Source of the DNA: Chloroflexota bacterium
GTDB lineage: Bacteria; Chloroflexota; Limnocylindria; Limnocylindrales; CSP1-4
Reading direction: 5' to 3'
Assembly (NCBI GenBank): GCA_003152995.1
Contig: PMBR01000091.1
Coordinates: 1-61,905, forward strand
Length of the DNA stretch: 61,905 bases
The notes beneath the pieces were generated by a model. That model was not told where the DNA came from. It did no database searches and saw only the letters and a list, made by a program, of their open reading frames with translations. This document shows, in pieces, positions 3,521 through 28,489 of the stretch. Position 1 is the stretch's first letter. Every line of letters begins with the position of its first letter. The position numbers were made by a program, and so were the translations under genes.

Positions 3521-4299
3521 GCCGCTTGCGACTCCATCTCGTTGCGAACGCATCGGCAGAACACCTCGATCACGGCGTCCATGGTAAGCCCAGGTGACGC
3601 TGGAATCGTCTCATAGGTCGTTGGCTGGTCTTCGTTCGGAGCGTGATACATGAACAGACCGACCGCATCCACATAGAGCCTGGCGAGGGCTCCCAATCGT
3701 CGGATAACCCCGCGCTGGTCGGCCGGCCCAGCAATTCGACAGCCGTAGAACACAACATACAGTGGACGCGCCGCCGCGAGGCCGGCCTGGCTCAGCGCGA
3801 CGGGTCCGGGTGACCATTGCGTCTTGAGGTCAATCGACGTCGCCATCATCTCGCGAACTCGCTTGTCGAGATCTTGGCTCACGGGACGACCAGCCGAGCT
3901 GGACGAAGCGTGATTGCCCGGATACGGGGGCGTTCCTGCGATCTTGGTCTCGCCCGCAGCGATAGGCTTGAGAGCCGCCCGTCGGCTCGGTGAGATCTCG
4001 AGGGGATCGGGGAAGACGAGATCGACATCGTGCCTGGGCAAGACCATGCCCTTGCGCTTACCTCGCTGGCCAATGTGCGTGCCCGTCCCGTTCTCGATCA
4101 GGGCGGCCACGGCCTCGTTGTAGTAGCGAGCCTTGGCCTTGTAGTCACCTGAGCCCATCTGCTGGGCCACGAAGACTGAGTCGAAGGCCGAGATCGCGGA
4201 TAGGAATGCTTCCTCAACATCTGCCCAGCGAGTGACGCGATCCCGTCGGATCGTTTCGAGAAGCTTCTCGAACTGCTGGAAGGTGTAGATCGTGGTCAC
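3517..4299 (-). CDS. Candidate restriction endonuclease partner of the methylase
   Basis: A 260-residue soluble protein starting at GTG 4299, whose stop overlaps the methylase start (ATGA), so the two are made together. It contains an acidic DVDLVF strand (about 91-96) and, after a Ser-rich linker, SIDLKTQW (about 155-162). The D...D-x-K arrangement is compatible with a PD-(D/E)XK nuclease core, and the hydrophobic strand LYVVFYGCRI follows as a core strand would. I do not recognise the exact family. The nuclease call rests on this motif plus coupling to the methylase; it could also be a specificity or control subunit. Confidence 0.5.
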   Translation of the reverse strand: MTTIYTFQQFEKLLETIRRDRVTRWADVEEAFLSAISAFDSVFVAQQMGSGDYKAKARYYNEAVAALIENGTGTHIGQRGKRKGMVLPRHDVDLVFPDPLEISPSRRAALKPIAAGETKIAGTPPYPGNHASSSSAGRPVSQDLDKRVREMMATSIDLKTQWSPGPVALSQAGLAAARPLYVVFYGCRIAGPADQRGVIRRLGALARLYVDAVGLFMYHAPNEDQPTTYETIPASPGLTMDAVIEVFCRCVRNEMESQAA

Positions 4300-9472: not shown

Positions 9473-9560
9473 CAACAACCCCCAGCTGACGAAATCCGTT
9501 GCTCTCTGTCATTGGTATTTAGCATCTTGTGTCCAGTTTCAGCGTCCTTCCCGGTCCCCA

Positions 9561-10811: not shown

Positions 10812-13800
10812 AGGCCGGTGTGTCGACAACCTGGATAATCCGCGTCGACTCCACAACCGCAGGCGGCAGATCATCGCCGAGTTCACGATCGGTGACATGC
10901 ACGAAGTCGCGCCCGAGCCGGCGATCTGGGGCATTGCGTAAGCGGATCCGGCACGGGAAGCGACCGATTGCCTTCATGTCGCTCACGCCCGACAGGAACA
11001 CGAGTTGCATCCCTGCCGCTCGTGCGACCGCGCGCTGGAGATCGAGGAAGGTCACATGGCTCGCAGAACCAAGCGGATTGTCGAGAACGACGACGCCGGC
11101 ACCAACCGCTCGCCCGCGGTTTCGCGCGCGCAGTTTCGCGATCGTTGCGAAAAGCATCAGCGAGGCAGTCACGCGCTCGCCGCCCGACCACTTTCCGAGC
11201 CGCACCGCGGGTAGTGGTTCGGCAACAAGATCTACCCGAGGCTTGAGGATCGTCACACGGAATGCGTCGTCACCGACGGCGGCCTTGGTAGCTCGCCAGA
11301 GGAGCTCGAAACCACCGGGTCGCGTCCGTTCGCGACTGATCCGGTCAACCTCATCGCCGATCCGCGCGCGCAGGACTGCTTCGCTGGTGTCGATGGACGA
11401 CCGAACGCCGATGTCGATGAACTGCTCACCTTCGAGTCCGCCGAGACCGGCCGGCAATCGGGAGAACTCGGATAGCCGGCGAAGGTCGCGCAGAGATCGA
11501 CGAACCATGCCAACGCCGTCCTCGACAACGGTGTCACGAGCTTGGTCGAGCCCCTTGAGATGCTCCAAAATCGCAGCCCGTCGAGTCTCCATCTCAGCCG
11601 CGAATGCCCGCGCCTCTGGTGCCAGCTCTTCTACCACTCGCTCACGGAACCTCGAAACGACCTCCTTGGCGACTCGGACAAATCGCGGATCGGTCGTCCA
11701 CAGGGCGATATCGCGGGCTTGCGCGACAAGGGAATCTTGTGCGGCTACATCTGCTTTGAGGGCCTCTGCCAGCGAACCACGAACGCTAACGACGGCGGCC
11801 TTGGCCTCGTCAGGTTCGCCGGCGAACGGCGTGGCTTGAGCATCGGGCTCGTCCGGACCGAGCGCGTCGCTGAGGCGGTCCACCTGAGAGCCGAAGGCTG
11901 AAGTTCGCTTCTCAGCCGCTTCGAGGTCGGCGCGCGCACCGGCGGCCCGTGACTCGGCGGTGCGACGAAGCTCGAGATGAACGTTGTTCTGTTCGATGGC
12001 ATCTTGTTCGAGACGAAGCGCCTCGACTCGAGATGCTGGCTCCTCAGGCAAGCGCACCCGTTCGCGATCTGTGGCCTGAGTCAATTCCGTTTCGGCTTGT
12101 TCGAGTTCCGCCTGTGCTCGACCAACGGACTGAGAGAGTTCCGAGACCTGCTCACCTGCCCGCACGGAGGCCAAATCGCGGGCGGCTTCGGACGAACCGT
12201 CCGGAGTCTGAAGCAGCCGAGATGCTCGATCCACCGTCATCGGGTCCTGGCGAGCCACCTTTGCCGCTGACTCGCTGGCAGCCCTGCGTGCTGTCGCGAG
12301 GTTGCGCTTCGTCTCAGATTCCTCGACTTCGCGGTTCCAGGCGTCATTCGCGTCGATCCAAGCCTGTCGGAGCACGTCGAGCGACGAACTCTCACTATCG
12401 GTTGCGTCCGCGCCGCCCGGAAGCGAGGCTCGTTCGGCCGCAAAAGCCTTGGCTTCATCGGCGCGCAGCGCGGCAATCCCCTTGGCGTTATCGCGTCGCC
12501 GTTCGCTCCCGACGATCTCTCGATCGCGGTTCCGGATCTCCTCATCCAAGGTTTGGATCCGTCCGGGGATCGCGTCGGCTTCGGCGCGTGTTGCCACTGC
12601 TGAGGCGACGCGGTCAACGAGTGCGGCCAGCCGCTCCATCGCGCGACCACGAGCATGTCGTCGGGCGGCGATTTGGGTTAGCTCCTCGCCAATAGCACGG
12701 TCGCGGAGGTCGTCGTTGCGGATGCGCTCCTTCGCCGCCGTAAGAGCCTCGGCCGCTTGGCGAGCGTCCGCCTCGGCGAGTTCGAGTCCATTTGTGAGCC
12801 GCTCAATGTCGCCAGGCTGACACTCGGCAAGCAACGAGCGCAGTCGCCGGCGTAACTCGCCGTCGGATTCCTGCCCTGCGGCGAGGTTCGCTCGCTGCAA
12901 TTCACGTTCTTCTGCGCGTGTCTCGCGTTCGGTCCAATCGGCCGCAGCTCGATCAGCGTCATACAGAGCGGCGTCAGGGGGCAGGACGAAAGCTTCAGGC
13001 GCATGCCCATTGCCAAAGACTGCCATGAGATCGTCGAGCGTCGCGACCCCAACGATCGAGGTAGGAGCCAGCCCCGCGTCCGCGAGAAGTTCCCGCGCCT
13101 TAGCGAGGTCGTCAGAATTTCGGACGAGAACACCGCCGACGACGAGGGGCGCGGAGAGAAAGGCGGTGAGGCGGCGCGACGGCTCAGCCTGTTCCGCCAG
13201 TGCACGCCATCCAGTCATCGCGGGAATTCGAGCATCCTCGAGGACTCGAAGCGCGCGTTCAACGTCGATCGAAGGAGGGAGAAGTTGAGCGGTCGCAAGA
13301 CCGCGTCGGGCGCGTTCGTCTTCAACGCTGGCGATCGCAAGAGCGATCAAGTCTTGATCCGACCGGAGGATCGACGCCCCAAGCGCCTCTTCAATAATGG
13401 GGCCCATACCGATGACATCCGGGGCTTCGGTTCCCGACAGGATCAGGATTCGCGGTTCTTCGGCCAGACCCTGCCGGAGCGCCAGGATCCGGTCGAGGGC
13501 CACCCGGTCACGTTCGGCGGCGGCTCTTGAGGCGTTGGCGAACGGCTCAAGTTCTGTCGTGAGCCGCTCACGCTCTGCGTCCACACGAGACCGAGCCTTG
13601 CTACGTTCCGCCCCGAGTTCACCGTCGCGGGCAACGTCACTGGCGTCTTCTCGCTGAGACCGAACGAAAGCGATCTCGGCCAGCTCGTCGGCTCGAATCA
13701 AACCTTCTCGCCTGGCGCGGTCGATAGAGGCATCGATGTCAGTGTGCAGAGCGTCGAGGCCACGCTTGCGCTCTTCGTATCGGATCCGTTTGAGCGTTGC

Positions 13801-15171
13801 ATCATCCTTGGCGGTGTGCGCTGAAGTCAGATCCCTCTCGGCCTCAAGAACTGACTCGGTTTGAGCGTCGACTTCCTTCCGAGCCGCTGCTTCCAGCGAA
13901 CCCAGGGCTCCTGCCAGATGAGCAGCCGTGGAGAGCCTCAACCGCTCCAGAGGTGCTGCCCCTTCGGTCAGTTTCGCGAACTCGGCTTCGAGGGTGCCGA
14001 GCCGGCGCGCGGTGTCGTCGCGCTCAACCAGGAGAGGGACTACCCGCCAGGCCCGGTCGTTTGCCTGCGCCTCACCGAGTGACGTGGTTTCCGCCTGGAG
14101 GGTGACTTGGGCCTGGTCGCGCCGGTAGAGGGCCGCAATACGCGAGTATTCGTTCGCCATAGCACGCCACTGCGACGCACTCGCCCGTTCGGCGGCGACC
14201 GACTTGTCTTCAAGATCGGCTCGTTCTTGCGCGGCAGTTCCGTCGGCTTCTGCTTTCTCCTTTGCGAGCCGAAGGGAGGTCCTCACCCGAGCGGCTTCAA
14301 CTCGGACCGCAGTCAGATGAGACCGGGCGCTGCCGGCAGAGTCATACAGGATGGCAAGGCGTCCCAGATGATCGACCGCCTCGGCACTAAAGGCCGCGTC
14401 AGCCTCCACATCCGGCCGCTCCGCCAATTGATCGGCGACGTCGCCGAGGATGGAGGCGACCTTGGTCGGTTCTCCGGGTTCAGTGATCAGCTCAAGGATT
14501 CGTCGCACGAACTCCTCGGGCTTCTGCTCGACGAACTCGTTGGCGATGCCGCCTTCCACGCGGTTCATCGAACCGATCGTTTCCCACAACGTCGGATCGA
14601 GTCCTCGATCGTCAAGCAGCTTCTCCCAGCGATGGGGCTCACCGATGATCGCAACCGGTTCGCACGCGGGCGGTAACGCCTTGATCGCCGGTAGGACCGT
14701 ATCAAGCGTGCTCTGGCGGCCGCCGTGGCGGAACGGGAGCCGGTCGAGTTCGGCCTTGTTGCCGTCGCAGTTGAATGAGTAGCGCACGATCTTGAGCTTG
14801 GCCCGGCCTGCGGCCGGATCCGCGGGCGCCTGGCGTTCGGGCCACTCGTAGATAGCGCCAGTGACAAGTCGACGGCCGTCCGGGTGGGCCCACTCGATTG
14901 CGACGTGCGATGTGTCCCCCGAAAGCACGTAATCCTCGAGGGCGCGCGCCTCCTCGTGGCCTTGACGGCCACTGAGGAATTCCGCACGCCGAGGACGCAT
15001 CAACGACACAAGAAGGGCGACAAGTGTCGACTTGCCTCCGCCGTTCCGCAGCCACAGGACGGTGTCGAGTGGATGCGTTCCGTCCGCCGACGAGAGGTCG
15101 AGTCGAACGTTGGCGAATCGACTCGCGGGCGTGCCGATCGAGTCGAGGTAGATGGACTTGATCTGCCACAT
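10798..15171 (-). CDS. jetC: Wadjet JetC-like SMC ATPase
   Basis: A 1457-residue SMC-family ATPase, predicted loop-extruding motor of a Wadjet plasmid-defence complex. Walker A is LRNGGGKST (41-49). Long Ala/Glu/Arg-rich coiled coils fill the middle and surround a globular hinge-like segment. The C-terminus has the ABC signature KWSGGERVTASLML and a Walker B-like VVVLDNPLG, where Asn-Pro follows the Asp instead of the usual Glu. The protein begins MWQIKSIYLDSIG, unlike TIGR02680 (type II) JetC proteins as I remember them. Three bases separate it from jetB upstream and it overlaps jetD downstream. SMC-ATPase identity is very sure; the Wadjet role follows from the four-gene set. Confidence 0.85.
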   Translation of the reverse strand: MWQIKSIYLDSIGTPASRFANVRLDLSSADGTHPLDTVLWLRNGGGKSTLVALLVSLMRPRRAEFLSGRQGHEEARALEDYVLSGDTSHVAIEWAHPDGRRLVTGAIYEWPERQAPADPAAGRAKLKIVRYSFNCDGNKAELDRLPFRHGGRQSTLDTVLPAIKALPPACEPVAIIGEPHRWEKLLDDRGLDPTLWETIGSMNRVEGGIANEFVEQKPEEFVRRILELITEPGEPTKVASILGDVADQLAERPDVEADAAFSAEAVDHLGRLAILYDSAGSARSHLTAVRVEAARVRTSLRLAKEKAEADGTAAQERADLEDKSVAAERASASQWRAMANEYSRIAALYRRDQAQVTLQAETTSLGEAQANDRAWRVVPLLVERDDTARRLGTLEAEFAKLTEGAAPLERLRLSTAAHLAGALGSLEAAARKEVDAQTESVLEAERDLTSAHTAKDDATLKRIRYEERKRGLDALHTDIDASIDRARREGLIRADELAEIAFVRSQREDASDVARDGELGAERSKARSRVDAERERLTTELEPFANASRAAAERDRVALDRILALRQGLAEEPRILILSGTEAPDVIGMGPIIEEALGASILRSDQDLIALAIASVEDERARRGLATAQLLPPSIDVERALRVLEDARIPAMTGWRALAEQAEPSRRLTAFLSAPLVVGGVLVRNSDDLAKARELLADAGLAPTSIVGVATLDDLMAVFGNGHAPEAFVLPPDAALYDADRAAADWTERETRAEERELQRANLAAGQESDGELRRRLRSLLAECQPGDIERLTNGLELAEADARQAAEALTAAKERIRNDDLRDRAIGEELTQIAARRHARGRAMERLAALVDRVASAVATRAEADAIPGRIQTLDEEIRNRDREIVGSERRRDNAKGIAALRADEAKAFAAERASLPGGADATDSESSSLDVLRQAWIDANDAWNREVEESETKRNLATARRAASESAAKVARQDPMTVDRASRLLQTPDGSSEAARDLASVRAGEQVSELSQSVGRAQAELEQAETELTQATDRERVRLPEEPASRVEALRLEQDAIEQNNVHLELRRTAESRAAGARADLEAAEKRTSAFGSQVDRLSDALGPDEPDAQATPFAGEPDEAKAAVVSVRGSLAEALKADVAAQDSLVAQARDIALWTTDPRFVRVAKEVVSRFRERVVEELAPEARAFAAEMETRRAAILEHLKGLDQARDTVVEDGVGMVRRSLRDLRRLSEFSRLPAGLGGLEGEQFIDIGVRSSIDTSEAVLRARIGDEVDRISRERTRPGGFELLWRATKAAVGDDAFRVTILKPRVDLVAEPLPAVRLGKWSGGERVTASLMLFATIAKLRARNRGRAVGAGVVVLDNPLGSASHVTFLDLQRAVARAAGMQLVFLSGVSDMKAIGRFPCRIRLRNAPDRRLGRDFVHVTDRELGDDLPPAVVESTRIIQVVDTPAFDLA

Positions 15172-15174
15172 CGG

Positions 15175-15900
15175 TCAGCCCTCCGCGAATTCGGAGCCGC
15201 GCTCGGTGGCGACTCGCCGCAATGCTTCGAGGGCCTCTCCGCCGGCGATCTCAGCGACCATAAGGCGGAAACGATCGGTCAACAGATAGCGGCCTTCGCC
15301 AAGACGAGCGCCGGCGCGGTTCGCCATATGCTGATCGACCAAGAGTTCGAACCCGTCCTGGACGATCCGTTGCGTGCAGCCCGTTGCCGGCCCAGGCTGC
15401 GATGCCTTTGGCTTGAAGACGGGCAGCCGATCCCACGCCAGAGCGGCCGAACGGACACGCGCCTCGACCGTGTCCGCGTCGCCAGTCAAGGCCTTCAAGG
15501 GCTCGATCGACGTCCGGACAAACTGCTCGACCCGCTTGATCGAGAGAATCTGTCCGCCCGGGGCGTCGAGCGTGTCGTCTCGTGGATACGCGAGTGCGGC
15601 GATGGCGAGCATTGCCAAGCCAAAGAGCATGCGGGCTTCCGTGTTGTCCATCCGAAGATCGCCCAAACGGAAAGCAAAGACCGACCCTGTAACTGGAGCC
15701 AGCACGACGCCGCTTCGCGGAGTGCCGAGGATGGTCAACCCAAGCCCGCGGGCGAACTCGTCCACGAGCTGGCGAAACTGCTGGTTGTTGCGATAGCGAT
15801 CGAGCGCCTGTCCGTAATCGGATCCTTCGGCCGGGTTTCGGTTTGTGAACCCAGCACCAATAAGGATCCCAGCCGCTGTCGCATCGGCCAAATCTGTCAT
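15175..15900 (-). CDS. jetB: Wadjet JetB-like (MukE/KITE-type) subunit
   Basis: A 241-residue protein between the kleisin-like and SMC genes, the position and size expected for JetB, the KITE/MukE-like winged-helix dimer that binds the kleisin. The sequence alternates helices with short beta hairpins (GVVLAPVTGSVFAFRL; LGEGRYLLTDRFRLMV), consistent with tandem winged helices. There is no catalytic motif. Its ATG overlaps the stop of jetA as ATGA (15900-15897), and its own stop is 3 bp from jetC. Assignment is mainly by synteny and length because JetB sequences are poorly conserved. Confidence 0.65.
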   Translation of the reverse strand: MTDLADATAAGILIGAGFTNRNPAEGSDYGQALDRYRNNQQFRQLVDEFARGLGLTILGTPRSGVVLAPVTGSVFAFRLGDLRMDNTEARMLFGLAMLAIAALAYPRDDTLDAPGGQILSIKRVEQFVRTSIEPLKALTGDADTVEARVRSAALAWDRLPVFKPKASQPGPATGCTQRIVQDGFELLVDQHMANRAGARLGEGRYLLTDRFRLMVAEIAGGEALEALRRVATERGSEFAEG

Positions 15901-17510
15901 TTCTTGCCTCGCCGATAGCGATCGATGGAAATAGGCTGGGGAGTTGGGTCGACCGGCATAGGGGCGACGAGGTCACTCGCAAGCAATGCTTCGGGACTGC
16001 CGACAAGTAGATCGGCGCCCGAGTAATCGGGATCGACGAGTTGTCGCCCGATATCGAGCGACTCGATACCACTCGTTATGTCTACCTCAGCGCCACGGCC
16101 GATCGCTTCGGGGTCTTCTTCTGGCGCGAACGCCCAAAGGCACGCGAGCACGAGCAGGTCAGCCAACTCTGGATCCTGGCGGGAACGTGCAAGTGTCAGA
16201 AGATCGGAGAGAAGCGTGGGAGTGCGACGGGCAACACTGAGGATCTCGCCGGCCGCGGCGATTGTCGCGTTGCTGTAGCTCTGCGGGTCGGCGGCGCCAT
16301 CATCTGCGTCTGGAACTTCGGCGTCTATTTCTCGCGGCACGTAGCTCCGTGGCGGTGCGAGCAGGCCGTCAATGAGGTCGTTCAGGCGCGCGAGACGACG
16401 ACCGCGGACGCCGAACGCATTGACCACGAATACGTCAGTGACGACCGTCGCGAGTTGAGCGGGCAGCGCCAGGACCGGTTCAAAGAGTTGCGTCCGGATC
16501 GACAGCAGCCGAAGTCGCGGCCGGCGGGCGAGCCGCTGTTCTCCCTGCGCCGAAAGGAACCGCTTGTGGACCGGAAGGATCCGCTGCTGGAGATCGAGGT
16601 GAAGCGCCTTGCAGCCTTCCAGCAGCTCAATGATTCGGCCCGACTCGGCCCGCACTTCCGCCTCGTCGGCGTCGAGTCCTGAGGCAGCGTGCTCCAGGAG
16701 GCGATTGTCGTCCACGATCCTGCCCGCGATATGGTGGCGTGCTGCGGACACCTGATCTCGCAGATCGTTCCAGTCGATGGAGGTCACATCTCGCCCGATG
16801 TCTTCGAGCAGGATGGAGATCGATGCAGCGACCCGACGTGATGTCTCGCCGGCGGCCTCGGCGCTGACACGCGCAGCATCGAGACGACCGTCCGCCAGCT
16901 GTCGCTCGAGCATGACGGCGATCGCCGCCTCAGTGTCTGTCGCATCGAGGTCGAGCGCAGAGAGGAATACGTTGATGGCCTCGGCCGAGGCGCTGACGCT
17001 GACGCCGTCCTCGGTGGGCTCAAGCTTCAAGAGATCGAAGGTGAACGGACGGGGAACGCCGTCCTCGCCGACTCCCGTGAAGGTGAACCGGGCGAAGTCA
17101 TCGGGCGCGTTGAGCAGGTGCCTGTAGACGAACTCGGCGGCGTAGCGGGCGTCCGAGGTGGAGATCCCCGGCGACATTCGCTCGGCGAACGCGGTCAGGG
17201 CATCGATCACCGCGTCTTCGCTGATATCCCGGGAGATACCCATCGAAGCGACGACGAGGTCGATTGTTCGCTGTGCCAAGCGGCGAAGGTCGAGGTGAGC
17301 CTGGTCAATCGGCTCAGGCTGTGTATGGGCGGCAGCCCGGACGAGGGCCTCGACCGGAGCCATAACGACCTGGGAGCGCCAACGACGCTCGTCGGCGGTC
17401 AGTTTCGGCGGTCGTGGACGCCGCTCGGCCTGAATCGGGGCGATCGGCACCAGGCCGACCGACTGGTCGGGTCCCCACTCAAGCTTGGCCTGGCTTTCCA
17501 CGATCCGCAC
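15897..17510 (-). CDS. jetA: Wadjet JetA-like kleisin (MukF-type) subunit
   Basis: A 537-residue protein and first gene of the jet operon (GTG 17510, preceded by AGGGGG). The order kleisin-KITE-SMC-Toprim matches Wadjet JetA-B-C-D. The N-terminal part (about 30-200) is a compact helical/winged-helix region, the middle (200-420) is long amphipathic helix resembling the MukF/JetA coiled arm, and the C-terminus is short and acidic, ending PQPISIDRYRRGKK. There is no enzymatic motif. JetA would bridge the JetC heads and recruit JetB. The assignment rests on gene order and predicted fold. Confidence 0.65.
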   Translation of the reverse strand: MRIVESQAKLEWGPDQSVGLVPIAPIQAERRPRPPKLTADERRWRSQVVMAPVEALVRAAAHTQPEPIDQAHLDLRRLAQRTIDLVVASMGISRDISEDAVIDALTAFAERMSPGISTSDARYAAEFVYRHLLNAPDDFARFTFTGVGEDGVPRPFTFDLLKLEPTEDGVSVSASAEAINVFLSALDLDATDTEAAIAVMLERQLADGRLDAARVSAEAAGETSRRVAASISILLEDIGRDVTSIDWNDLRDQVSAARHHIAGRIVDDNRLLEHAASGLDADEAEVRAESGRIIELLEGCKALHLDLQQRILPVHKRFLSAQGEQRLARRPRLRLLSIRTQLFEPVLALPAQLATVVTDVFVVNAFGVRGRRLARLNDLIDGLLAPPRSYVPREIDAEVPDADDGAADPQSYSNATIAAAGEILSVARRTPTLLSDLLTLARSRQDPELADLLVLACLWAFAPEEDPEAIGRGAEVDITSGIESLDIGRQLVDPDYSGADLLVGSPEALLASDLVAPMPVDPTPQPISIDRYRRGKK

Positions 17511-18836: not shown

Positions 18837-19688
18837 CTACATATTTGCTGTCAGGTCGTTATTGGCCCATGCGATGGCCTCCTCGACAGTTTCAAGCACA
18901 TCGAGGTCAGTCGCCGCTTCTGCGTAGATCGAGGGCCACCCGTCGAAGGCCACAACGGTCGGGGGCCACGGCTGGGCCCTACGCGACGCAAACAGACGCC
19001 GTGCCGTCACGCCGACTGCGGCCAGGTCTGGCCTTTCTTCACGGACGAGAATCTGGAGGTCGACAAGATCATGGGCACGGTCGTTGCCTCCAGTTGCACC
19101 ACCAGAGGTGCAGGCGTGGAGCTTCTGCGCGATCTGGTGATCGACCGGGAGCAGTGGAATCGGCGCCGGCTCCGGTAACCCTACTGATGCAAAGAGCGCC
19201 ACGATATCCGGCGCAATACGCCAGTCCGGGTCAACGGCGCTTCCTACCTCGTCGCGCCCTAACTCAAAGTCAATTGTGACCCAGCGGCTACCCTTATAGG
19301 AAAGGGCGACCTTGAACGGTCTCATGACATAGTCGGCTGGCACGGTCGGCGGCGCTTTCACGGCACGACCGTCGCGGATGGTCCCAGTGAAGCCCTCCCA
19401 GCCGGTCCTGAGGTTTTCGTCGAAGACACCCAGGTAAGAGTCGAGATCAGTGCCGGCTTTCCGGGCGGCATCGAGATCTCTGGAGAACCGGGATCCTTCT
19501 TCCCCGACTCGGACCTTCAGCGCCGTGCCGCCCTTCATCACGCCCGGTGGCAACATCTGGCCGACGATGACGTTTGCTATTAGTCGATCGAGGATGCCCT
19601 CACCGCGTCCGAGTGCGCGCGCCCGACCGCGAATCCGGTCTTGAAGCTGCGCGAGGCTGCGCGGCTCCTGAATCTCGGGGAGTGTCAC
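18837..19688 (-). CDS. abiEii: AbiEii toxin, nucleotidyltransferase (type IV TA)
   Basis: A DUF1814/AbiEii-family nucleotidyltransferase toxin of 283 residues. MKGGTALKVR (51-60) followed by SRFSRDLDAA (66-75) gives the GG...D-x-D NTase active site, and DRAHDLVDLQIL downstream matches the conserved helical part. Toxins of this family block growth, and in phage defence they act by abortive infection, by adding nucleotides to RNA. The GTG start at 19688 overlaps the antitoxin stop as GTGA, the usual antitoxin-toxin order. The length is normal. Confidence 0.85.
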   Translation of the reverse strand: MTLPEIQEPRSLAQLQDRIRGRARALGRGEGILDRLIANVIVGQMLPPGVMKGGTALKVRVGEEGSRFSRDLDAARKAGTDLDSYLGVFDENLRTGWEGFTGTIRDGRAVKAPPTVPADYVMRPFKVALSYKGSRWVTIDFELGRDEVGSAVDPDWRIAPDIVALFASVGLPEPAPIPLLPVDHQIAQKLHACTSGGATGGNDRAHDLVDLQILVREERPDLAAVGVTARRLFASRRAQPWPPTVVAFDGWPSIYAEAATDLDVLETVEEAIAWANNDLTANM

Positions 19689-20236
19689 TTCTTCTCCAAC
19701 TGCTCAAGCACGCCTGCCACCTCGCCGCGCCGTAGTAGCCCTCGCTCTGCAGCTTCGTTCGCGGCAGCCACAAGCCTCTCGGTCATGACTATGCCGAGGC
19801 TGTCGGTGAGAGCGCGCGCAACTGTAGTTGAGGGGATGGATTCATAGACAGTCAGATCTTGGGGAGAGATGTCAGTGCGCACGATCTGGATCGTGCGCGG
19901 CACTCGTGGCCTCGAACGCCGCGAAGTGCCAACGCGGAGACGCGTCGGATTCACGAGCGCCAGATCGTGCAGGGCGAGGACAGCGTCGGCCATGAGAAAC
20001 GCATCCTCTCCGACTCGCAGGACAGCCTCCATGTAGGCCTCACGCCCAGTAACGGGCACGTCATCGAAACGGTAGAGGCCGTAGGAGATGTGGGTAAGCC
20101 CACCGCGTCGCAGGACCATGCCGAGCGCGATCAACGGGACCGCCAGTTCGGCTGCGTCCTTCGTTGTGAAGTATCCATACCGTTCAAAGGCACGTTCGTG
20201 CAGCTTTCGCCTATAAGTTGCCCGAAGTTCGCTCAC
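19685..20236 (-). CDS. abiEi: AbiEi-family antitoxin / transcriptional regulator
   Basis: About 183 residues. The N-terminal winged-helix region (RYGYFTTKDAAELAV...LRRGGLTHISYGLYRF) is the AbiEi DNA-binding domain, followed by the C-terminal domain that neutralises AbiEii (ESIPSTTVARALTDSLGIV). I chose GTG 20236 because AAGGA lies about 9 nt upstream; a GTG at 20257 falls inside the operator. AbiEi proteins repress their own promoter by binding inverted repeats, and a palindrome is present immediately upstream. Confidence 0.8.
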   Translation of the reverse strand: MSELRATYRRKLHERAFERYGYFTTKDAAELAVPLIALGMVLRRGGLTHISYGLYRFDDVPVTGREAYMEAVLRVGEDAFLMADAVLALHDLALVNPTRLRVGTSRRSRPRVPRTIQIVRTDISPQDLTVYESIPSTTVARALTDSLGIVMTERLVAAANEAAERGLLRRGEVAGVLEQLEKK

Positions 20237-20252
20237 CGCCCACCGTCCTTGA

Positions 20253-20286
20253 GTCACAAGTTATACGAAAACGTTATAGTTGTGAC
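20253..20286 (-). promoter_or_regulatory. Palindromic operator/promoter of abiE operon
   Basis: GTCACAA (20253-20259) and TTGTGAC (20280-20286) are perfect 7-bp arms; inside them are two direct copies of GTTATA (20260-20265 and 20273-20278), each reading TATAAC, a -10 hexamer, on the minus strand. This AT-rich island in GC-rich DNA is most likely the promoter that AbiEi represses. Confidence 0.6.
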
Positions 20287-20723: not shown

Positions 20724-22112
20724 ATGGACATCAACTCTTGGCTGGCCGCACATCGCATTGATCCGGCCACCCTCAACTCCCAGCCAGTCGTCGATATCGG
20801 AGGGATCCAACTCGAATTTGAGAGCATCGCACAACGTTTCGAACACCCGGAAATCGTGGCCGCGGCAGGCGCGTCACTGCCCCGCGGAGTCCTCCTCATG
20901 GGGCCCGCCGGCGTCGGCAAAACCACCTGGTCACGCTGGTTAGCGAAACGCTTGGCCGGGATGGACCTCTACGAGGTCGGCCCAGAAGAGCTCACGGCCG
21001 ACCGCATCCGTGACGGCTTCGCCGTGCTGCGTGACAAGCCATCCATTCTGTTCATCGAGGACGTCGATCTCTTCGGCCTCGAGCGCAGCCGGTTTGGCGC
21101 AACCGATCTTTCTGGCGGCGTAACCAAGGCCCTCCTGGGCGCCATGGACGGCATGGTCGACTCGCCTTGGCCCCTGGTGATCGGGGCGACGACCATGAGC
21201 AAGTTCTCCCTCGAGCCCGCGCTGATTCGGGCCGGCAGGCTCGGACTGCACATCACCCTCGAGGCGCCGTTGACCGCCGAGCGTCGCGCTCTGCTTGATA
21301 CGTTCGCCTCTTCACGTGCCATCGCATCGGATGTCGACTGGGACGCCATCGCCGAGCTGACGGCCGGCTGGACACCGGCAGATCTGCGGCAGGCTCTCGA
21401 TGACGCTTTCGGTGTTGCCGTCGCCGGCGGCCGTCTGATCGTGGAGGCTGCCGACATCAAGACAGCATTCGGCCGCCGCGGCGCGATCGAACCCACGACC
21501 GAGGTCTGGGACCCGTGGCGGACCGCAGTCCACGAGTCCGGCCACGTGGCCGTGGCCCTGGCCCTGCAAGGCCCCGCGTTCATCCGTTCGGTCTCCATCA
21601 AACCCCTCGGGGGAATGACCAAAACCGGTGAGGATGGCCAGGGGATGGCCGACCTTCCGGCCGATCGAGTCCGCTCGATGTTCGCGGTCGCATACGGAGG
21701 CCTCTCTGCCGAAAAGGCAGTGCTCGGCGCCGGCACCCTCGGCGTGCTCGATGACATCAGGACCGCCACACACGACATCGAAGTCTTCCTCGCCTGCGGC
21801 CTCGACGAAGGGTTCCCTCCGATCGACCTCCGTGAGCTCAAGCACCTGGCTTCAGAAAGGCTGAAGACCCTCCACTCGGTTGCGGTTACGCGACTCGCAG
21901 ATCAGGCATGCGACACCGCTGACGCAATCGTCGCGGCGAACGTAGGCCCGATCGAGTTGTTCGCCAAGCACCTCGTCGAAAGCTCGGACCTCTCCGGGCG
22001 CGAGCTCAACAGGGCGCTTGAGGCCGCCGGCTTTCGGACGCTCGCCGCCGGCGGAGCGACGGAAACGATCGTCCACTCCGATAGGTTCACAGGTGACCAG
22101 GCGGAGGCCTGA
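20724..22112 (+). CDS. Membrane-free FtsH-like AAA+ / M41 metalloprotease
   Basis: A 462-residue single-chain AAA+ unfoldase plus zinc protease. Walker A GPAGVGKT (60-67), Walker B ILFIEDVD (108-115), second region of homology ending IRAGRL (168-173), then the M41 peptidase: AVHESGHVAVA with HExxH zinc ligands (270-274) and LDDIRTAT (342-349), matching the distal Asp ligand of FtsH. Unlike FtsH there is no N-terminal transmembrane pair; the protein begins MDINSWLAAH and is soluble and short (FtsH is about 600-650 residues). The ATG is preceded by a strong GAAGGAG site. It is followed after 41 bp by an unknown gene, an apparent two-gene unit ended by a hairpin terminator. It reads as an accessory, substrate-specific protease on the island. 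Confidence 0.85.
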   Translation: MDINSWLAAHRIDPATLNSQPVVDIGGIQLEFESIAQRFEHPEIVAAAGASLPRGVLLMGPAGVGKTTWSRWLAKRLAGMDLYEVGPEELTADRIRDGFAVLRDKPSILFIEDVDLFGLERSRFGATDLSGGVTKALLGAMDGMVDSPWPLVIGATTMSKFSLEPALIRAGRLGLHITLEAPLTAERRALLDTFASSRAIASDVDWDAIAELTAGWTPADLRQALDDAFGVAVAGGRLIVEAADIKTAFGRRGAIEPTTEVWDPWRTAVHESGHVAVALALQGPAFIRSVSIKPLGGMTKTGEDGQGMADLPADRVRSMFAVAYGGLSAEKAVLGAGTLGVLDDIRTATHDIEVFLACGLDEGFPPIDLRELKHLASERLKTLHSVAVTRLADQACDTADAIVAANVGPIELFAKHLVESSDLSGRELNRALEAAGFRTLAAGGATETIVHSDRFTGDQAEA

Positions 22113-22821: not shown

Positions 22822-23328
22822 TCACCAAACAGGATCAGGCGCGTTGTGCCGTCCCCATAGGACCCCCGCAATCCAACGGGGGCAACGTTCGCCGTCGACA
22901 AAGGCGCGAGACGATTCGTCCAGCTGACCGTAGGACCAGCGGTCGGCGAAAGTATCCACAAACATCGGACCAACCGGGACGCCTCGATCAATCTCCTTTG
23001 CTCGTGCCTGCGATCTGGGTGTGATTGCCTCGGGTTGGTGGGGCCAGGCCGCCCTGGCCGCTACCAGCCACGCCCAGAACTCGCCAACGCTGCCGGTTGC
23101 GGCTGCGAGCCTCTCGGGGTCGAATAGGGGATCGAGGATGCCCCAGGTGGGGTCTGGCCTACTGTCGATGTAGTTTGGGCCGACCGGCGGAGTGGGGCGG
23201 TTGGGGACGATCCGACTCAACTTGGCAACTTCGGCGAGGTCGAGCCATTTGCGCCCGCGCGCAAGCAGGACAATGAGCCGATACTCGGCCATCGTGAGGG
23301 GAGCGAAAGGGCAGTCGCTCGGTTCCAT
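22822..23328 (-). CDS. Unknown protein downstream of (overlapping) tniQ
   Basis: A 168-residue frame starting at ATG 23328, directly after an in-frame TGA, and overlapping the 3' end of tniQ by 170 bp. Its N-terminal region PLTMAEYRLIVLLARGRKWLDLAEVAKLSRIV (residues about 11-42, winged-helix-like) looks more protein-like than the Arg/Pro-rich tniQ frame over the same DNA. The C-terminus, CPRWIAGVLWGRHNAPDPVW, ends 31 bp from the opposing terminator. It could be a small transposon accessory protein or the displaced C-terminus of TniQ after a frameshift. The family is not recognised. Confidence 0.55.
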   Translation of the reverse strand: MEPSDCPFAPLTMAEYRLIVLLARGRKWLDLAEVAKLSRIVPNRPTPPVGPNYIDSRPDPTWGILDPLFDPERLAAATGSVGEFWAWLVAARAAWPHQPEAITPRSQARAKEIDRGVPVGPMFVDTFADRWSYGQLDESSRAFVDGERCPRWIAGVLWGRHNAPDPVW

Positions 23329-24484
23329 TCAGAAGACGCTGTCGTCGAGCGGAATCGCACACGATCGCGACGAGCCCCACGCGGCTTGCCCGCAGGTTCG
23401 CATTGAGCGGGATGTCCGCTCGCTTGAAGCAGCCGGCGATCGTGATCGGACGGCCTTCCAGCAGATCTGACCGGCAAGTCTCCTTGAGGGCCGCCTGCCA
23501 GCCCTTGAGGCGCCGCTGGGCCTTCCTGACGTTGTGGCGGGACGGATGGTCAGACCCGTGGTTTTCGTCGAAGGTCATGACGATTCGGCGACCGACGAAC
23601 CGAGTTCCGCACTCGGGGCAGTGACGCTCCGCGAGGCCTTCGCGAGCGAGGCGGTCCTTGTCGCCAGGCGGAAGGAAGCGAGGGCACGTCGCGTTCGGGC
23701 ACGGCGGTGTAGGTCGCTCCTCGAGGTAGGAAACGAGCTCGGGCTTGATCTGCAGCGCCTGGAAGACGCTGACCAACTTCTCGAACGAGGCTGACCTTCC
23801 GACATCGTGAAGCGGATACCCGCGCTTGCGGGTCTTGATGGTCCGATAGCCGAGACCGCGGATGTCATCGCCCTTCCATCCGAGAAGGAACGTCCAGGCA
23901 CGCCACGTGTCGCGCAGGTGCTCAAGCTCGTTCTCGGCGACCGGCTCCGGCTCGGTTGCGGCAAGGTCCTGCTGGCACCCAGCACACCGAACGACGTTGC
24001 CGACGACCTCGGGCGGATATGGTCCTCCGTGGCGACCACAGAAGCCGACCAGCTTCGTCGAATGCACTGGACATACGTCCATCAGCGGCAGAAAGCAGAA
24101 CCGCGGGATCGTCCCGGTTGTGGCCAAGCACCGAGGACAGAAGCGAAGGTGGCCGGCATCACCCAGGGCAGCAATGCTGAGATCAGGGTCGTTCGCCGCC
24201 CGGCGAAGGTCGGGCAGGAGCGTCAAGCCGACCATCTGCTCGAATGGGTTGCGCGTCAGGTGGGCGAGGCGCCGTAGGTCCCACACAGTTCCTGCGGCCC
24301 ACATCGTCGCGCTCAAGTGTCGCCAATCAGTCGTGTGCGTGGCAACTACTTTGGACACACCCCCAAATTCCCAGCCATTCGCTCGATCTATGCGAAGCAT
24401 GAACCCCAGCAGGGACTCGTCGGGCAACGGATCGAGCACGTGCGGGAACGGAGACTCCGTTCCGGGGAACGCAATCACAGTCAC
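23159..24484 (-). CDS. tniQ: TniQ/TnsD-family transposon target selector
   Basis: A TniQ-family protein chooses the insertion site and hands it to TniB/TnsC. The N-terminus shows the TniQ pattern PHVLDPLPDESLLGFMLRI, then LRFCPRCLAT (C116/C119), DVCPVHSTKL (C138, H141) and VVRCAGCQQ (C167/C170), the paired zinc fingers of the family. A second zinc motif (PCPNATCP...RHCPECGTRF) lies near residues 275-310, as in longer TnsD-like proteins. The GTG start at 24484 overlaps the tniB stop. The last 55 residues are Arg/Pro-rich and out of character, and overlap another frame, so the true C-terminus is uncertain. Given the tRNA-Pro gene at the element's end, it probably recognises that gene. Confidence 0.85.
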   Translation of the reverse strand: MTVIAFPGTESPFPHVLDPLPDESLLGFMLRIDRANGWEFGGVSKVVATHTTDWRHLSATMWAAGTVWDLRRLAHLTRNPFEQMVGLTLLPDLRRAANDPDLSIAALGDAGHLRFCPRCLATTGTIPRFCFLPLMDVCPVHSTKLVGFCGRHGGPYPPEVVGNVVRCAGCQQDLAATEPEPVAENELEHLRDTWRAWTFLLGWKGDDIRGLGYRTIKTRKRGYPLHDVGRSASFEKLVSVFQALQIKPELVSYLEERPTPPCPNATCPRFLPPGDKDRLAREGLAERHCPECGTRFVGRRIVMTFDENHGSDHPSRHNVRKAQRRLKGWQAALKETCRSDLLEGRPITIAGCFKRADIPLNANLRASRVGLVAIVCDSARRQRLLNGTERLPFRSPHDGRVSAHCPACARAQMARPRRSCQVESDRPQPPHSAGRPKLHRQ

Positions 24485-25500
24485 TAGATGACCGTGACCT
24501 TCGCAGACGAACCGCTCTCGCCGTCAGGACTGGCGCTGCCTGGGTCCCGGACGAGGACTTTCGTTTCTGGCGAGGCGAGCATGGCGGCGACCACTTCGTC
24601 GATGAGCGCCGCTCCGGGTATGTCGGAGAGGTGTCGAGCTGCGAGCCGTCGAATGATGCCGTCGACAACGTTTCGGACGTTCTGCATGGTTACCCGCTCA
24701 CCGGGGTCCGTGTCGAAGAAGGAGTGAGTCAGGTGCGTGTGAATCCGGCTCGACCACATCGTTAGCCGCAGATCGGGGAAACGTTCGTTCAGGACTCCTT
24801 GCTCGTATCCGGCCAAGACGACCTTCACCTCCTCGGCGCTTAGGGAGGCGATATGGCACCAGGGTCGTTCCGAGGTCGACATCCTCTTTCGGAACTGACG
24901 CCACTGGGCTGAGCCCTTCTTGAGGATGAGCTCTTGAAACGGCATGTGGCCTTGCATGCCCTCGCAGACGATCACGAGACCGACCTTGGCACGCATCTTC
25001 TTCGCGACCTCATCGAGGAGCTGCTTCAGGTAGAGCAGGTCCTGAGACATGTGGCCATGGCCATCGTCGGTAATAACGAGACGCGTTCCACATCGCACCA
25101 TCTCGCCGATTAGCCATCGGCGACGGGCCACGAACGTGCCCCGTGGGACGGTGCCGAAGTTGTCGATGAGGGAATCCTGTAGTCCAGCCAGGGAGGAGCG
25201 GTCGTCGGTGAGCGGGCTCCCGACAATTACAGGGGCGCGCGTCTGGCCCGTGTGCAGACGCTCAACTGGATGTCGATCTTGGTAGTCCTCAATCTCGACA
25301 GATTTGCCAGCCCCCGATAGGGCAGTCGCGATGTGCCAAGACCGATTGGCAAAGGCTTCGTCGAAGAGTTCGCGCAGTTTCCTCGCAGGCGGGGTCTCCA
25401 GATAGAAGTCGTCGAGCTGGACGACAGGCCGGGAGGTCTGGACCGGCTCATCGCTCAACCTAATCCACCCGAATTCGGTCTCGACTTGAGTGGCGGCCAT
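24484..25500 (-). CDS. tniB: TniB/TnsC-like AAA+ transposition ATPase
   Basis: A 338-residue AAA+ regulator linking the target selector to the transposase. Walker A is ATALSGAGKSVEI and Walker B LVITDDGH; RKRMSTSERPWCH is near the sensor region. A Pro/Asp-rich N-terminus (VQLDDFYLETPPARKLRELF) matches TniB proteins. ATG 25500 follows the tniA stop (TAG 25505-25503) within TAGTGATG. The acidic, Gly/Ser-rich C-terminal tail could bind the transposase. Gene order tniA-tniB-tniQ and length are standard for Tn5053/Tn7-like modules. Confidence 0.88.
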   Translation of the reverse strand: MAATQVETEFGWIRLSDEPVQTSRPVVQLDDFYLETPPARKLRELFDEAFANRSWHIATALSGAGKSVEIEDYQDRHPVERLHTGQTRAPVIVGSPLTDDRSSLAGLQDSLIDNFGTVPRGTFVARRRWLIGEMVRCGTRLVITDDGHGHMSQDLLYLKQLLDEVAKKMRAKVGLVIVCEGMQGHMPFQELILKKGSAQWRQFRKRMSTSERPWCHIASLSAEEVKVVLAGYEQGVLNERFPDLRLTMWSSRIHTHLTHSFFDTDPGERVTMQNVRNVVDGIIRRLAARHLSDIPGAALIDEVVAAMLASPETKVLVRDPGSASPDGESGSSAKVTVI

Positions 25501-25502
25501 CA

Positions 25503-28154
25503 CTAATCCAACTCTCGTGGGACGCGACGACGGACCAATGGAATTACGATCGGCTCATCGACATCGTCATCGGGCCCCGGCAGCTTCGAGGGGTCTGTTT
25601 GCCAGGCCGGGCCTCGCTTCTGCGCTTCCGCCATTCGACGACGCTCCGCCAAGGCGTCAGCGGTGTGGATCTCATCTTGTTGGGCATCGAGGAAACGGGC
25701 TCGCGACGCTTCCTTCGCAATCCGCTTGCGCTCGCGGGCCATTTTCTGGGAGTCGGCCACGATGGTCGTAAGGTTCCCTGACGATGTCCGATGGGCCGTC
25801 GCCTTCGGCTCCTTCATCATCTTCCGCTCCGCATCCTGCTCCCAGACCGAGATGCGTCGAGAGGCATACTTCGGGCAATGAGCGGCGCCGAGAATGGTTG
25901 CGTCCTCGCCCATGAGGTAGATGGTGCCGATATCGCGCTTGTCCCAGAGCACGGCAACGTAGTCGTCGCGCAACCGCGCGGTCAGGCCCTCTTCGCCGAC
26001 ATACCAATTGCCCTTGAAGCTGACGCCGCCACCCTGAACGAGATACATGCCCTTCGGGTGCTTGGGATTCCAGGAACGCTTGAGGAGCAGCTTCCGCTCG
26101 TCCGACGACACCATCGATTGCGGAACGCCGAACTTGGCGGCATCAAGGTCCCAGATGACGTTTCGAGGGCCTTGGCGGAGTTCGTCCCAGTCCTGCATGT
26201 AGCCATCGACGATTGCGCGGTAGAAGAGCTCCTCGAGGTCCGTAAACGTGATCCCGCTCCTGAGCGCCCCAGCTTGCGAATCGTAGGTTCCGCGATCGGT
26301 GGGGCTGCTCTTGGTCGTGCCAGCCAGGCGGTGAGTGAACCTCTCGGTGATCCATCGGAACAAGGCTTCGACCACGCCCTTGACCGACGGGGCGTAAGGA
26401 GGTGCGAACGACTGGTTGATGCCGAAACGATCGACCAGGACGACCGTGCTGAGCTCTGAGGTGATGATCTTGCCCCGGTCACTCAGGATTTCGGCCGGGC
26501 GCCCGTAGCACGGCCACGGATTTAGGCATTTGAAGCGACGCAGGATCTCATCCTTGGGCTCCATTGCCTGCTTGATCAGGCGAAGGTAATCCTCCTCGGT
26601 CAGCGCCCTGGGGCTCAAGACTGCCGCCACGATCGCGCCAGTCTTCACATCGATCAAGACCGCTGCGTGGACTCGCTCGGTAAGCTCGGCGCCCTCGTCG
26701 CTGACTACGAAGACATCCATGTAGTGCTCGTCGACGTTGAGAATGAGCATCGGGCTTGGGATCGTCCGAACGTATCCCAACACCGAAGTGGCGGAGTGGG
26801 GGATATGGGCGAGATCCGCACGAGCGTTGCGGATGCCCACGTCGATCTTCTCGAGGTTCTTTGCGTAGTGATACACCTGCCAGTAGGAAGGCATTGGCGG
26901 GAGGACACCAGTCGCCTTGAAGGCCGCCATGGCGGCTTTCTTGAGCTCTGGCGCTTCGGTAATGTGAACGTAGGTAAGCTTCGGCTTGGTCTTCCTCTGG
27001 ACCAAGAGCTTCCGGACGGGTTCAAGGAACGCAGAGTCCATCTCGGAGCGCCGGGGGCCTAGATGGACATATGGGACGAGGGCCTCCTCGCCGCCGGCCT
27101 CGCCTTTTCGCACCAGTTGCTCGACCCGCTTCTTGCCCAAGCCCTCGACTTCCCCCACCTCGGCATAGCTCGAATTGCTCACCAAGACGGACTGGACGAT
27201 GCGCAGATTCCGGAGAAAGCCGGATCGCTGGGGCTCCGGAAGACTGTTTGGATCGACAGTCTTGCCAGGAAGAAGCCCTGCCGGCTTCGGCTCTGGCACT
27301 GGCTGATTCGACCTGAACTCTGCTATTGAAACCGGTAGCCGCGGTGGTGCGACCGCTGCCATTGACGGCGGCAGGAGCCGCAGGGGTGTGTCGAGATCGA
27401 GCAGGACCGCATCGAGATCGACGACAAGACGTCCTTCCGTCACAGCTATTGCGATCCGCCGCCAAGCCGACTCGGTTACGAGGCGCTCCCCGAATCGCGA
27501 CCCGAGAGCCGAGGCGAGCTCGCGAATGGATACCGGCTCGACCTGCAGCAGCCGCAACTCAATCTCGGGAGCGACCTCGTCGTAACCGACGAAAGGGAGC
27601 AGGTAGGCATTGAGTCGACGCAGGTTGAACAGATAGAGGTCGCTTATCGCACCTGGGAGGAACAGGCCGAACCATCCACCCAGACGGGTAAAATGCATCG
27701 TCGCGGCCGCGAGCTTGGCCTCGGATTGAGCGTCGCTCTTGAGATCCTCGATGCTCGCTTCGACCCCATACGGAGCCCCTGTAGCGAGCACCCCGACCCA
27801 ATCTATGTAGTAGTCGTGGTCGGTTCCGTCGAACCGATACGGGATTACGTAAGGGGTCGGGAGCTTCCATCCGAGCTTGTGGGCCTTGGCGAAAGAGGTC
27901 CCAATATCGCCACGCTGCGTGTAGGCGACCAACGGATTGAAGGCCTGGTAGAGAAGAGCGTCGCGCTCCTCCTGCGTCGCATAGGGCAATGCCTTGCGGA
28001 ACTCCTTGCCCAAACCGGTCTTGCCGTAGGGCAGCCATCCCGAGATGGTCTTGCCGGCCATCTTGAAGATGTCGAGGCCTTGTTCGCCGGACGCGGGCGG
28101 AGCGAGTTCGGAAGACGGATCTGCGTTGATCGAGGCCGATTTCGCGGATGACAT
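25503..28154 (-). CDS. tniA: TnsA-TnsB fusion transposase (DDE integrase, TniA family)
   Basis: An 883-residue transposase (ATG 28154 with GGAG about 9 nt upstream; ATG 28178 would add 8 residues). The C-terminal two-thirds is TnsB/TniA: DDE residues in ILNVDEHYMDV, EILSDRGKI and KGVVEALFRW, then a basic tail. It is about 300 residues longer than a plain TniA. The extra N-terminus reads as TnsA: HDYYIDWVGV (Asp near residue 118 of this start) and VEASIEDLKS (D-x-K, near 137-139), then HFTRLGGWFGLFL and a LYLFNLRRLNAYL helix, then a winged-helix segment (EPVSIRELASALG...EGRLVVDLD) as in the TnsA C-terminus. A TnsA nuclease cuts the 5' strands, so this element probably moves by cut-and-paste. 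The fusion call is my reading of motifs. Confidence 0.8.
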   Translation of the reverse strand: MSSAKSASINADPSSELAPPASGEQGLDIFKMAGKTISGWLPYGKTGLGKEFRKALPYATQEERDALLYQAFNPLVAYTQRGDIGTSFAKAHKLGWKLPTPYVIPYRFDGTDHDYYIDWVGVLATGAPYGVEASIEDLKSDAQSEAKLAAATMHFTRLGGWFGLFLPGAISDLYLFNLRRLNAYLLPFVGYDEVAPEIELRLLQVEPVSIRELASALGSRFGERLVTESAWRRIAIAVTEGRLVVDLDAVLLDLDTPLRLLPPSMAAVAPPRLPVSIAEFRSNQPVPEPKPAGLLPGKTVDPNSLPEPQRSGFLRNLRIVQSVLVSNSSYAEVGEVEGLGKKRVEQLVRKGEAGGEEALVPYVHLGPRRSEMDSAFLEPVRKLLVQRKTKPKLTYVHITEAPELKKAAMAAFKATGVLPPMPSYWQVYHYAKNLEKIDVGIRNARADLAHIPHSATSVLGYVRTIPSPMLILNVDEHYMDVFVVSDEGAELTERVHAAVLIDVKTGAIVAAVLSPRALTEEDYLRLIKQAMEPKDEILRRFKCLNPWPCYGRPAEILSDRGKIITSELSTVVLVDRFGINQSFAPPYAPSVKGVVEALFRWITERFTHRLAGTTKSSPTDRGTYDSQAGALRSGITFTDLEELFYRAIVDGYMQDWDELRQGPRNVIWDLDAAKFGVPQSMVSSDERKLLLKRSWNPKHPKGMYLVQGGGVSFKGNWYVGEEGLTARLRDDYVAVLWDKRDIGTIYLMGEDATILGAAHCPKYASRRISVWEQDAERKMMKEPKATAHRTSSGNLTTIVADSQKMARERKRIAKEASRARFLDAQQDEIHTADALAERRRMAEAQKRGPAWQTDPSKLPGPDDDVDEPIVIPLVRRRVPRELD

Positions 28155-28187
28155 GAGGGGAAGCTCCTGTCGGTGCATTCCTTCCCG

Positions 28188-28217
28188 AGTATCACCGGGC
28201 CTATGACCCTATGTCGA
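28188..28217 (-). promoter_or_regulatory. Candidate promoter of tniABQ operon
   Basis: On the minus strand TCGACA (28217-28212), an 18-bp spacer and GATACT (28193-28188) form a plausible sigma70-type promoter about 35 bp upstream of the tniA start, inside the element's right end. Confidence 0.45.
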
Positions 28218-28312
28218 TGTCGTCGCTGCCGATCGTGCCGATCGTGCCGGTTATGCCCCTCGAAATCCTCTTCGGCGGGTTCTCCGAGCCGATTCACCAA
28301 CTTTCAGGGTCA

Positions 28313-28396
28313 ATTCGTGCTCAGAGGCCGCTCGAAGGACACGATTCGTGCAATCTGGGACATGATTCGCGCAAAACCAGGTCCTACTTCGTGCAA
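28313..28396 (-). repeat. Four transposase-binding-site-like repeats at element right end
   Basis: On the minus strand the consensus TTGCACGAATCRTGTCC occurs at 28396-28380 (ends diverge), 28374-28358 and 28353-28337, with a shorter copy (core GCACGAAT at 28320-28313). Core-to-core spacings are 22, 21 and 31 bp, close to two and three helical turns. This is the arrangement of TnsB/TniA sites at Tn7-like ends. The outermost copy lies 18 bp from the tRNA CCA end; no TGT/ACA terminus could be fixed. Confidence 0.65.
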
Positions 28397-28413
28397 TTCA
28401 CCAACCGGGCGAG

Positions 28414-28489
28414 TGGTCGGGGCGGTGGGACTCGAACCCACGATCTCGTGCTCCCAAAGCACGTGCCTTACCAGCTAGGCCACACCCCG
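28414..28489 (-). tRNA. tRNA-Pro (anticodon TGG)
   Basis: The reverse complement folds as a full cloverleaf: acceptor CGGGGTG/CGCCCCG, D-arm GCC...GGC, anticodon stem CGTGC/GCACG around loop TTTGGGA (anticodon TGG), T-arm GTGGG-TTCGAGT-CCCAC, discriminator A and an encoded CCA (28416-28414). Its 3' end faces the transposon, the orientation expected for downstream insertion by a tRNA-targeting TniQ. Confidence 0.95.

Follow-up and report, generated by a model that had tools for sequence, protein, structure and literature searches.

Tn7 creates a 5-bp target duplication and inserts with its transposase-gene end nearest the target gene, and the Tn5053 family displays the gene order tniA-tniB-tniQ. 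This order is also present in the element described here, which lies partly on contig PMBR01000091.1 (C96) of a Chloroflexota bacterium. The window, i.e. the whole stretch of DNA analyzed, is that entire contig of 61,905 bp; the genome assembly is 3.05 Mb in size and 73% complete. The element is very probably a complete Tn7-like transposon of 38,693 bp, of the type with a fused TnsA-TnsB transposase (TnsAB) and with no CRISPR found, that has homed to the 3′ side of a tRNA-Pro(TGG) gene. Mobile elements of this kind are already known, and this is a new, well-delimited one.

Type I-D and I-B2 CRISPR-associated transposons (CASTs) derive from elements that have a TnsA-TnsB fusion and in which TnsD uses various tRNA genes (PMC11406308). 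The present element resembles this TnsAB-fusion branch (I-B2 and I-D: PmcCAST, CyCAST and McCAST) in having what is best read as a fused TnsA-TnsB protein, a TnsC and a large TniQ/TnsD, and in its insertion downstream of a tRNA gene (PMC11406308, PMC10293859). It differs in its Chloroflexota host, in that no CRISPR-Cas was found here, and in that the position of the expected TnsA lysine holds G or S; the likeness is one of description and not of placement in a tree. CyCAST inserts approximately 30-33 nt past the end of tRNA-Leu (PMC10293859), whereas here the target is tRNA-Pro and the distance is 10-11 bp past the CCA. With Tn7 the element shares the TnsB, TnsC and TnsD logic. Tn7 however targets glmS, has separate TnsA and TnsB proteins and contains TnsE (in part from PMC10293859). 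In Tn5053 a site-specific recombinase replaces TnsA, and res sites are the targets (PMC11406308). Type V-K CASTs also insert near tRNA genes, and the nearest solved TnsB by profile is that of ShCAST (1.7e-25). V-K elements however are RNA-guided and have no TnsA (PMC11406308), whereas no guide was found here and a TnsA-like part is present. The nearest kind is best read as the tRNA-homing TnsAB branch of Tn7-like elements, and not as Tn5053. A literature search of titles, which covered few subscription papers, gave none on a case such as the present one. The locus offers a fully delimited TnsAB-type element from the Chloroflexota that apparently homes to tRNA-Pro, and a related element is found at the same target.

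Ends of the element and the tRNA-Pro site

The boundary features are the following (window coordinates unless a contig is named).

1-28403, no strand: right 28,403 bp of the element, placed by an exact 26-bp contig overlap, an open reading frame through the join and the other end on contig C109
C109:1-10316 (locus L045): left 10,316 bp of the element, overlapping the window by 26 bp
28388-28403, minus strand: right terminal inverted repeat, which reads inward TGGTGAATTGCACGAA and is identical to the left end on C109
28380-28396, minus strand: subterminal repeat 1, a putative TnsB site, TTGCACGAAGTAGGACC
28358-28374, minus strand: subterminal repeat 2, TTGCGCGAATCATGTCC
28337-28353, minus strand: subterminal repeat 3, TTGCACGAATCGTGTCC
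28404-28408, no strand: right copy of the 5-bp target duplication ACCGG; the left copy is on C109 beside the left end
28414-28489, minus strand: intact tRNA-Pro(TGG), the target landmark, with its CCA end facing left, towards the element

The overlap between C109 and the window is found at the first 26 bases of the window and is in the correct orientation. An 881 amino acid open reading frame stays open across the join. The joined element has the length given above and displays a perfect 16-bp terminal inverted repeat. The sequence ACCGG is directly outside both ends, i.e. after the element end in the window and before the terminal sequence on C109. Ten bp separate the element end from the tRNA-Pro CCA, and these consist of ACCGG and five further bases. 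Counted from the left end, copies of the end motif are located at positions 9, 61 (inverted) and 78; counted from the right end, they are at 9, 31 and 52. Repeat arrays at both ends, together with a 5-bp target duplication, are marks of a Tn7-like element, and both are found here.

When up to three mismatches are allowed the end motif is not enriched. It is found 7 times in the window (5.9 expected; 39 of 100 shuffles reach 7), and the genome displays 74+98 copies as compared with 80+80 for a reversed control. Because the motif at this level is no commoner than the control, the case for the end repeats rests on exact matches. With zero mismatches, the motif is found in the whole genome on C96 (three copies, from which the motif was drawn) and on C109 (two copies, at 10248 and 10293) and nowhere else. 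A third C109 copy with one mismatch is at 10224, beside the two exact ones. Judged from its sequence, the C109 repeat cluster is the other end of the element.

A preliminary description of this locus had proposed a Tn7-like element at tRNA-Pro in the interval 22822-28489. Its right edge region stands, and the ends, the target duplication and a second element (below) agree with the proposal; the extent was too narrow, as the element runs from C109 to 28403. The boundary is precise at the terminal repeat, and the left end and 5-bp duplication that were to be looked for are both present. The 3′ end of the tRNA does face the element, and the stated 18 bp from the outermost motif to the CCA is the distance from 28396 to 28414 in positions, with 17 bases between. 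The description also took the whole left stretch as moving with the element, with defence genes as its cargo; window positions 1-28403 are indeed inside, and type II restriction-modification, PIN-TPR, Wadjet, AbiE and AAA/M41 genes are found there.

Empty sites in related genomes had also been envisaged, and gene order is in agreement with them. Twenty loci were fetched from 19 of 20 same-genus genomes, and 18 of these loci (18 genomes) contain tRNA-Pro(TGG). On the right side of the tRNA, window genes beyond 28600 are matched in 13 of the 18, in the case of L042 in inverted orientation. To the left, where 4 kb was compared, 15 of the 18 have genes of contig C44 at 62-2,989 bp from tRNA-Pro, and therefore their sites look empty; no C44-gene match was found left of the tRNA in L036, L042 and L043. 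C44 and the outer end of C109 share an overlap of 21 bp. In the present genome a carboxypeptidase-regulatory-repeat gene on C109 and the element separate the tRNA from genes that are near it in the relatives. The bare joined site sequence is found in none of the fetched relatives, and the outer flank of C109 gives zero matches to the left flanks of the 18. TniA was not found in the other 20 same-genus genomes (E 0.001; genomes 69-95% complete), nor was it found elsewhere among 177 genomes of the class at E 1e-30. Weaker TniA matches are present in G021 and G044.

The gene outside the left end (L045 10453-12117) belongs to a multi-copy carboxypeptidase-regulatory-repeat family, with other copies in this genome (G000) on contigs C20, C59 and C105. 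Several relatives display copies of the 5′ half of tRNA-Pro, with matches that start at window position 28450 (tRNA position 40). These are at L027 13387-13448, L029 1408-1465, L031 10465-10501 and 12155-12210, L036 2455-2486 and L039 7044-7083. The half-copies are on the 5′ side of the intact tRNA; L029 has no intact tRNA and L031 has two half-copies in tandem. Ordinary genes (MFS-like and sigma-factor-like by eye) lie between them. The half-copies suggest that insertions or duplications have happened repeatedly in the anticodon region.

Transposition genes and their products

The transposition genes are all on the minus strand to the left of tRNA-Pro and run away from the element edge, as the preliminary description had noted.

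25503-28178, minus strand: tniA, 891 amino acids, read as a TnsA-TnsB fusion; D483, D567 and E604 invariant, TnsA-like N-terminal part
24484-25503, minus strand: tniB/tnsC, AAA+ ATPase (TniB 7e-4, under cut-off)
23159-24484, minus strand: tniQ/tnsD, 441 amino acids, proposed tRNA-Pro reader; its C-terminal region is conserved in the tRNA-Pro homologue of locus L072
22822-23328, minus strand: orf168, overlapping the 3′ end of tniQ by 170 bp; no family found

Pfam identifies TniQ at 1e-10, and TniB at 7e-4 and Mu-transpos_C at 7.5e-4; the latter two are under the curated cut-offs. A TnsB-type transposase, a TnsC ATPase and a TniQ in one operon are a mark of Tn7-like elements, and this operon is present here. 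The last two thirds of TniA match TnsB (alignment profile against ShCAST TnsB), and the transposase residues D483, D567 and E604 are invariant in 8 of 8 sequences.

The TniA of the preliminary description is best read, from its sequence and predicted structure, as a TnsA-TnsB fusion. The AlphaFold model of TniA has a mean pLDDT of 56.8; in most blocks from about residue 70 to about residue 290 the value exceeds 80, and it is lower at 91-110 and 141-150. With Foldseek the model matches TnsA (1t0f) with probability 1.00, an E-value of 1.8e-3 and a TM-score of 0.42 by target, in output that gives no residue range. The top Foldseek match is a chain of the TnsABCD transpososome (9.4e-7). The TniA homologue of locus L072, which is described below, matches the NCBIfam TnsA-like model at 2.6e-4 (residues 91-242) and the Pfam TnsA-like N model at 0.061, both under cut-off. 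The window TniA has no match to the TnsA-like models of Pfam or NCBIfam.

An active TnsA nuclease displays catalytic E and D residues and an [E/Q]xK motif. In the TnsA-like part all eight sequences share E71, D126 and E140, and K147 is invariant also. The position where the TnsA lysine is expected holds G in seven of the eight and S in one; the matching of these motifs to TnsA is our own reading.

A single-sequence structure model of TniQ has a pLDDT of 34.8 and was not used. A PDB search with TniQ alone gave one unrelated match at 0.44, and a search with the TniQ alignment gave TniQ chains at 0.0035 and weaker. The orf168 product is possibly an accessory factor. The idea that orf168 is the tail of a frameshifted tniQ was rejected, as the TniQ of the homologue stops at about the same place.

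A second element at tRNA-Pro and the mode of targeting

A homologous element is found in G251, a genome from another Chloroflexota class (locus L072). Here tRNA-Pro(TGG) is at 5807-5883 and is followed by 11 bp and then by the element end TGGTAATTGACACGAAT at 5895. After this end come a repeat array, a short tniQ, tniA (38% identical), tniB and a full tniQ, all leading away from the tRNA. The two elements have the same tRNA, the same side and the same orientation, at 11 and 10 bp past the CCA. A distant homologue at the same kind of spot suggests that the element targets tRNA-Pro on purpose, and we infer that it is TniQ that reads this gene. Because the tRNA is left whole, insertion at this site is harmless to the host, and the defence genes travel along as cargo.

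In the proposed mechanism the C-terminal region of the TnsD-like TniQ would bind the 3′ part of the tRNA-Pro gene, and TniB (TnsC) would be recruited to TniQ. The TnsAB fusion, on the end repeats, would then carry out the insertion some 10 bp downstream, and the tniA end would come to lie closest to the tRNA. Between the window and L072 proteins, TniQ identity is 41% (57/138) at residues 255-395, 30% (45/150) at residues 1-150 and 24% (23/95) in the middle. The two proteins are most alike in the C-terminal region, and with this pair of elements the part of TniQ that would read the tRNA can be put to the test. What merits further work is this pair at tRNA-Pro, together with the altered TnsA motif.

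The short TniQ of L072 (6072-6968), between the element end and tniA, is without most of the C-terminal region. This layout of two TniQ genes resembles that of some CASTs. In dual TniQ-TnsD loci a protein of more than 400 amino acids is taken as the direct target selector (PMC10293859).

A strict pattern built from both sites, i.e. a tRNA 3′ end, 6-14 nt and an element end, was searched for in 400 genomes of the phylum. It finds both source sites, as it must by construction, and no other; a reversed control gave one hit in one genome. A looser tRNA-end pattern is found in 32 of 177 class genomes, and its reversed control is similar in number by eye, so that these matches are noise. TniA itself has a match at E 1e-40 in 13 of the 400 phylum genomes, with the genome of the window included. 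Eleven of 47 genomes match in the order of G251, and one of 158 in the class of G231, which is G231 itself. A plasmid search gave seven records with at most 31% identity, none covering 80%.

Several points weigh against an element that is complete and homes to tRNA-Pro. The two homologues, at 10 and 11 bp, favour a fixed site by their location; just these two cases at tRNA-Pro are known in this analysis. A search of the G251 genome did not reveal the far end of the L072 element. A third homologue with a TniQ (L086, apparently the same contig as L078) is on a contig of 9,135 bp that has no tRNA. The left end and the full length depend on contig overlaps in an incomplete genome, and the overlap of C44 with C109 is of low complexity. 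There is some circularity in the search with the strict pattern, and the matches to TnsA-like models are weak, as Pfam and NCBIfam give none for the window protein and none above the curated cut-offs for that of L072; because of these last two points our confidence is slightly reduced.

An element that inserts with little sequence preference could also account for this position, which would then be due to a permissive hotspot or to selection. Among the relatives the neighbours are at varying distances from the tRNA, and the 5′-half copies of tRNA-Pro show other insertions or duplications close by, which would suit a hotspot. This explanation is nevertheless improbable, in that a homologue from another class, with a TniA of 38% identity, has the same tRNA, side and orientation at a nearly equal distance. 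We estimate that an insertion at random would fall within 11 bp of one given tRNA end about once in 10^5 to 10^6 cases. A Tn5053-type element, i.e. a TnsA-less hunter of res sites that lies at a tRNA gene by chance, would account for the tniA-tniB-tniQ order and for TnsA-like sequence matches under curated cut-offs. However the long N-terminal part has a TnsA-like fold match, the homologue has a TnsA-like family match, no resolvase is present among the open reading frames scanned and the target is a tRNA gene; membership in Tn5053 was rejected on these points as highly improbable.

Homing by RNA guidance, with a hidden guide in the element that matches tRNA-Pro as in type V-K CASTs, has precedent: V-K and some type I elements guide to attachment sites, and V-K sites are mostly tRNA genes (PMC11406308). 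The best 17-nt match between target and element has two mismatches, in a comparison without a control, and it is in the left flank, outside the tRNA. Against this, the longest exact match is 12 nt (11-13 in 20 shuffles), and the best 24-nt match has four mismatches, a level reached by 3 of 12 shuffles, or six for the tRNA part alone. No direct repeats of at least 22 nt within 1.5 kb were found in window positions 1-28410 (C109 excluded), and no Cas family was found among the open reading frames scanned (for the 881 amino acid frame, its C109 part), so that the element is not classed with CRISPR-associated transposons. RNA guidance was rejected on the shuffle-level matches and the missing repeats and is exceedingly improbable. 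The remaining alternative concerns the extent of the element: C109 could hold the end of another copy, located at a different place in the genome, and the true left end and length would then differ. The assembly is incomplete and the join was made by overlap, which leaves room for this. It is however very unlikely and was rejected, as the two sides carry the same ACCGG, the contigs overlap exactly over 26 bp, the 881 amino acid frame is continuous and the genome, at its 73% completeness, has a single TniA match. A complete TnsAB-type element that homes to tRNA-Pro is the preferred reading.

Other homologues display TnsAB and, where this part was visible, TnsC, with no TniQ match nearby. These are L087, L089, L090, L092, L093, L095 and L098, from Ktedonobacteria and Blastocatellia. 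Several of the contigs stop soon after tniB (L087 and L090 are short), and tniA is fragmented in L093, L095 and L098. These TniQ-less homologues are regarded as insertion-sequence-like. In L086 (2088-5367) the homologue starts just behind a gene that by eye resembles a Tn3-family transposase, and repeats that end in CCTCGAACA are seen, also by eye.

It is possible, but rather doubtful, that there is a TnsAB-TnsC lineage of the Chloroflexota in which TnsA has lost the canonical lysine and either uses a displaced one or is silent. A tRNA-Pro-reading TniQ would then be an optional module. With it the element would home to tRNA-Pro and could carry a defence island; without it, in Ktedonobacteria and in Blastocatellia (another phylum), spread would be insertion-sequence-like.

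Defence cargo

The cargo genes in the window, preceded by the frame that crosses the contig join, are the following.

1-1771, minus strand: window part of the 881 amino acid open reading frame across the contig join; its C109 part matches HEAT_2 (2.3e-6)
1934-3553, minus strand: type II methyltransferase, 1.7e-109
3517-4299, minus strand: type II restriction enzyme match, 6.4e-7
5579-9478, minus strand: TPR protein with PIN-TPR-GreABC domain, 7.1e-7
9561-10934, minus strand: Wadjet JetD (best model JetD2)
10798-15171, minus strand: Wadjet JetC (type III model)
15175-15900, minus strand: Wadjet JetB (type III model), 4.1e-5
15897-17510, minus strand: Wadjet JetA (type III model)
18837-19688, minus strand: AbiEii
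19685-20257, minus strand: AbiEi
20724-22112, plus strand: AAA+/peptidase M41 protein, best PADLOC match IetA, 1.5e-14

Many defence systems, Wadjet included, are listed as cargo of Tn7-like elements (PMC8649781). Here several of them would travel together, as one 38.7-kb unit, to a safe site. The C109 part of the element contains a Gabija system (GajA 1.8e-57, GajB 1.6e-63) and a protein kinase, for which the best model is PD-T4-6.

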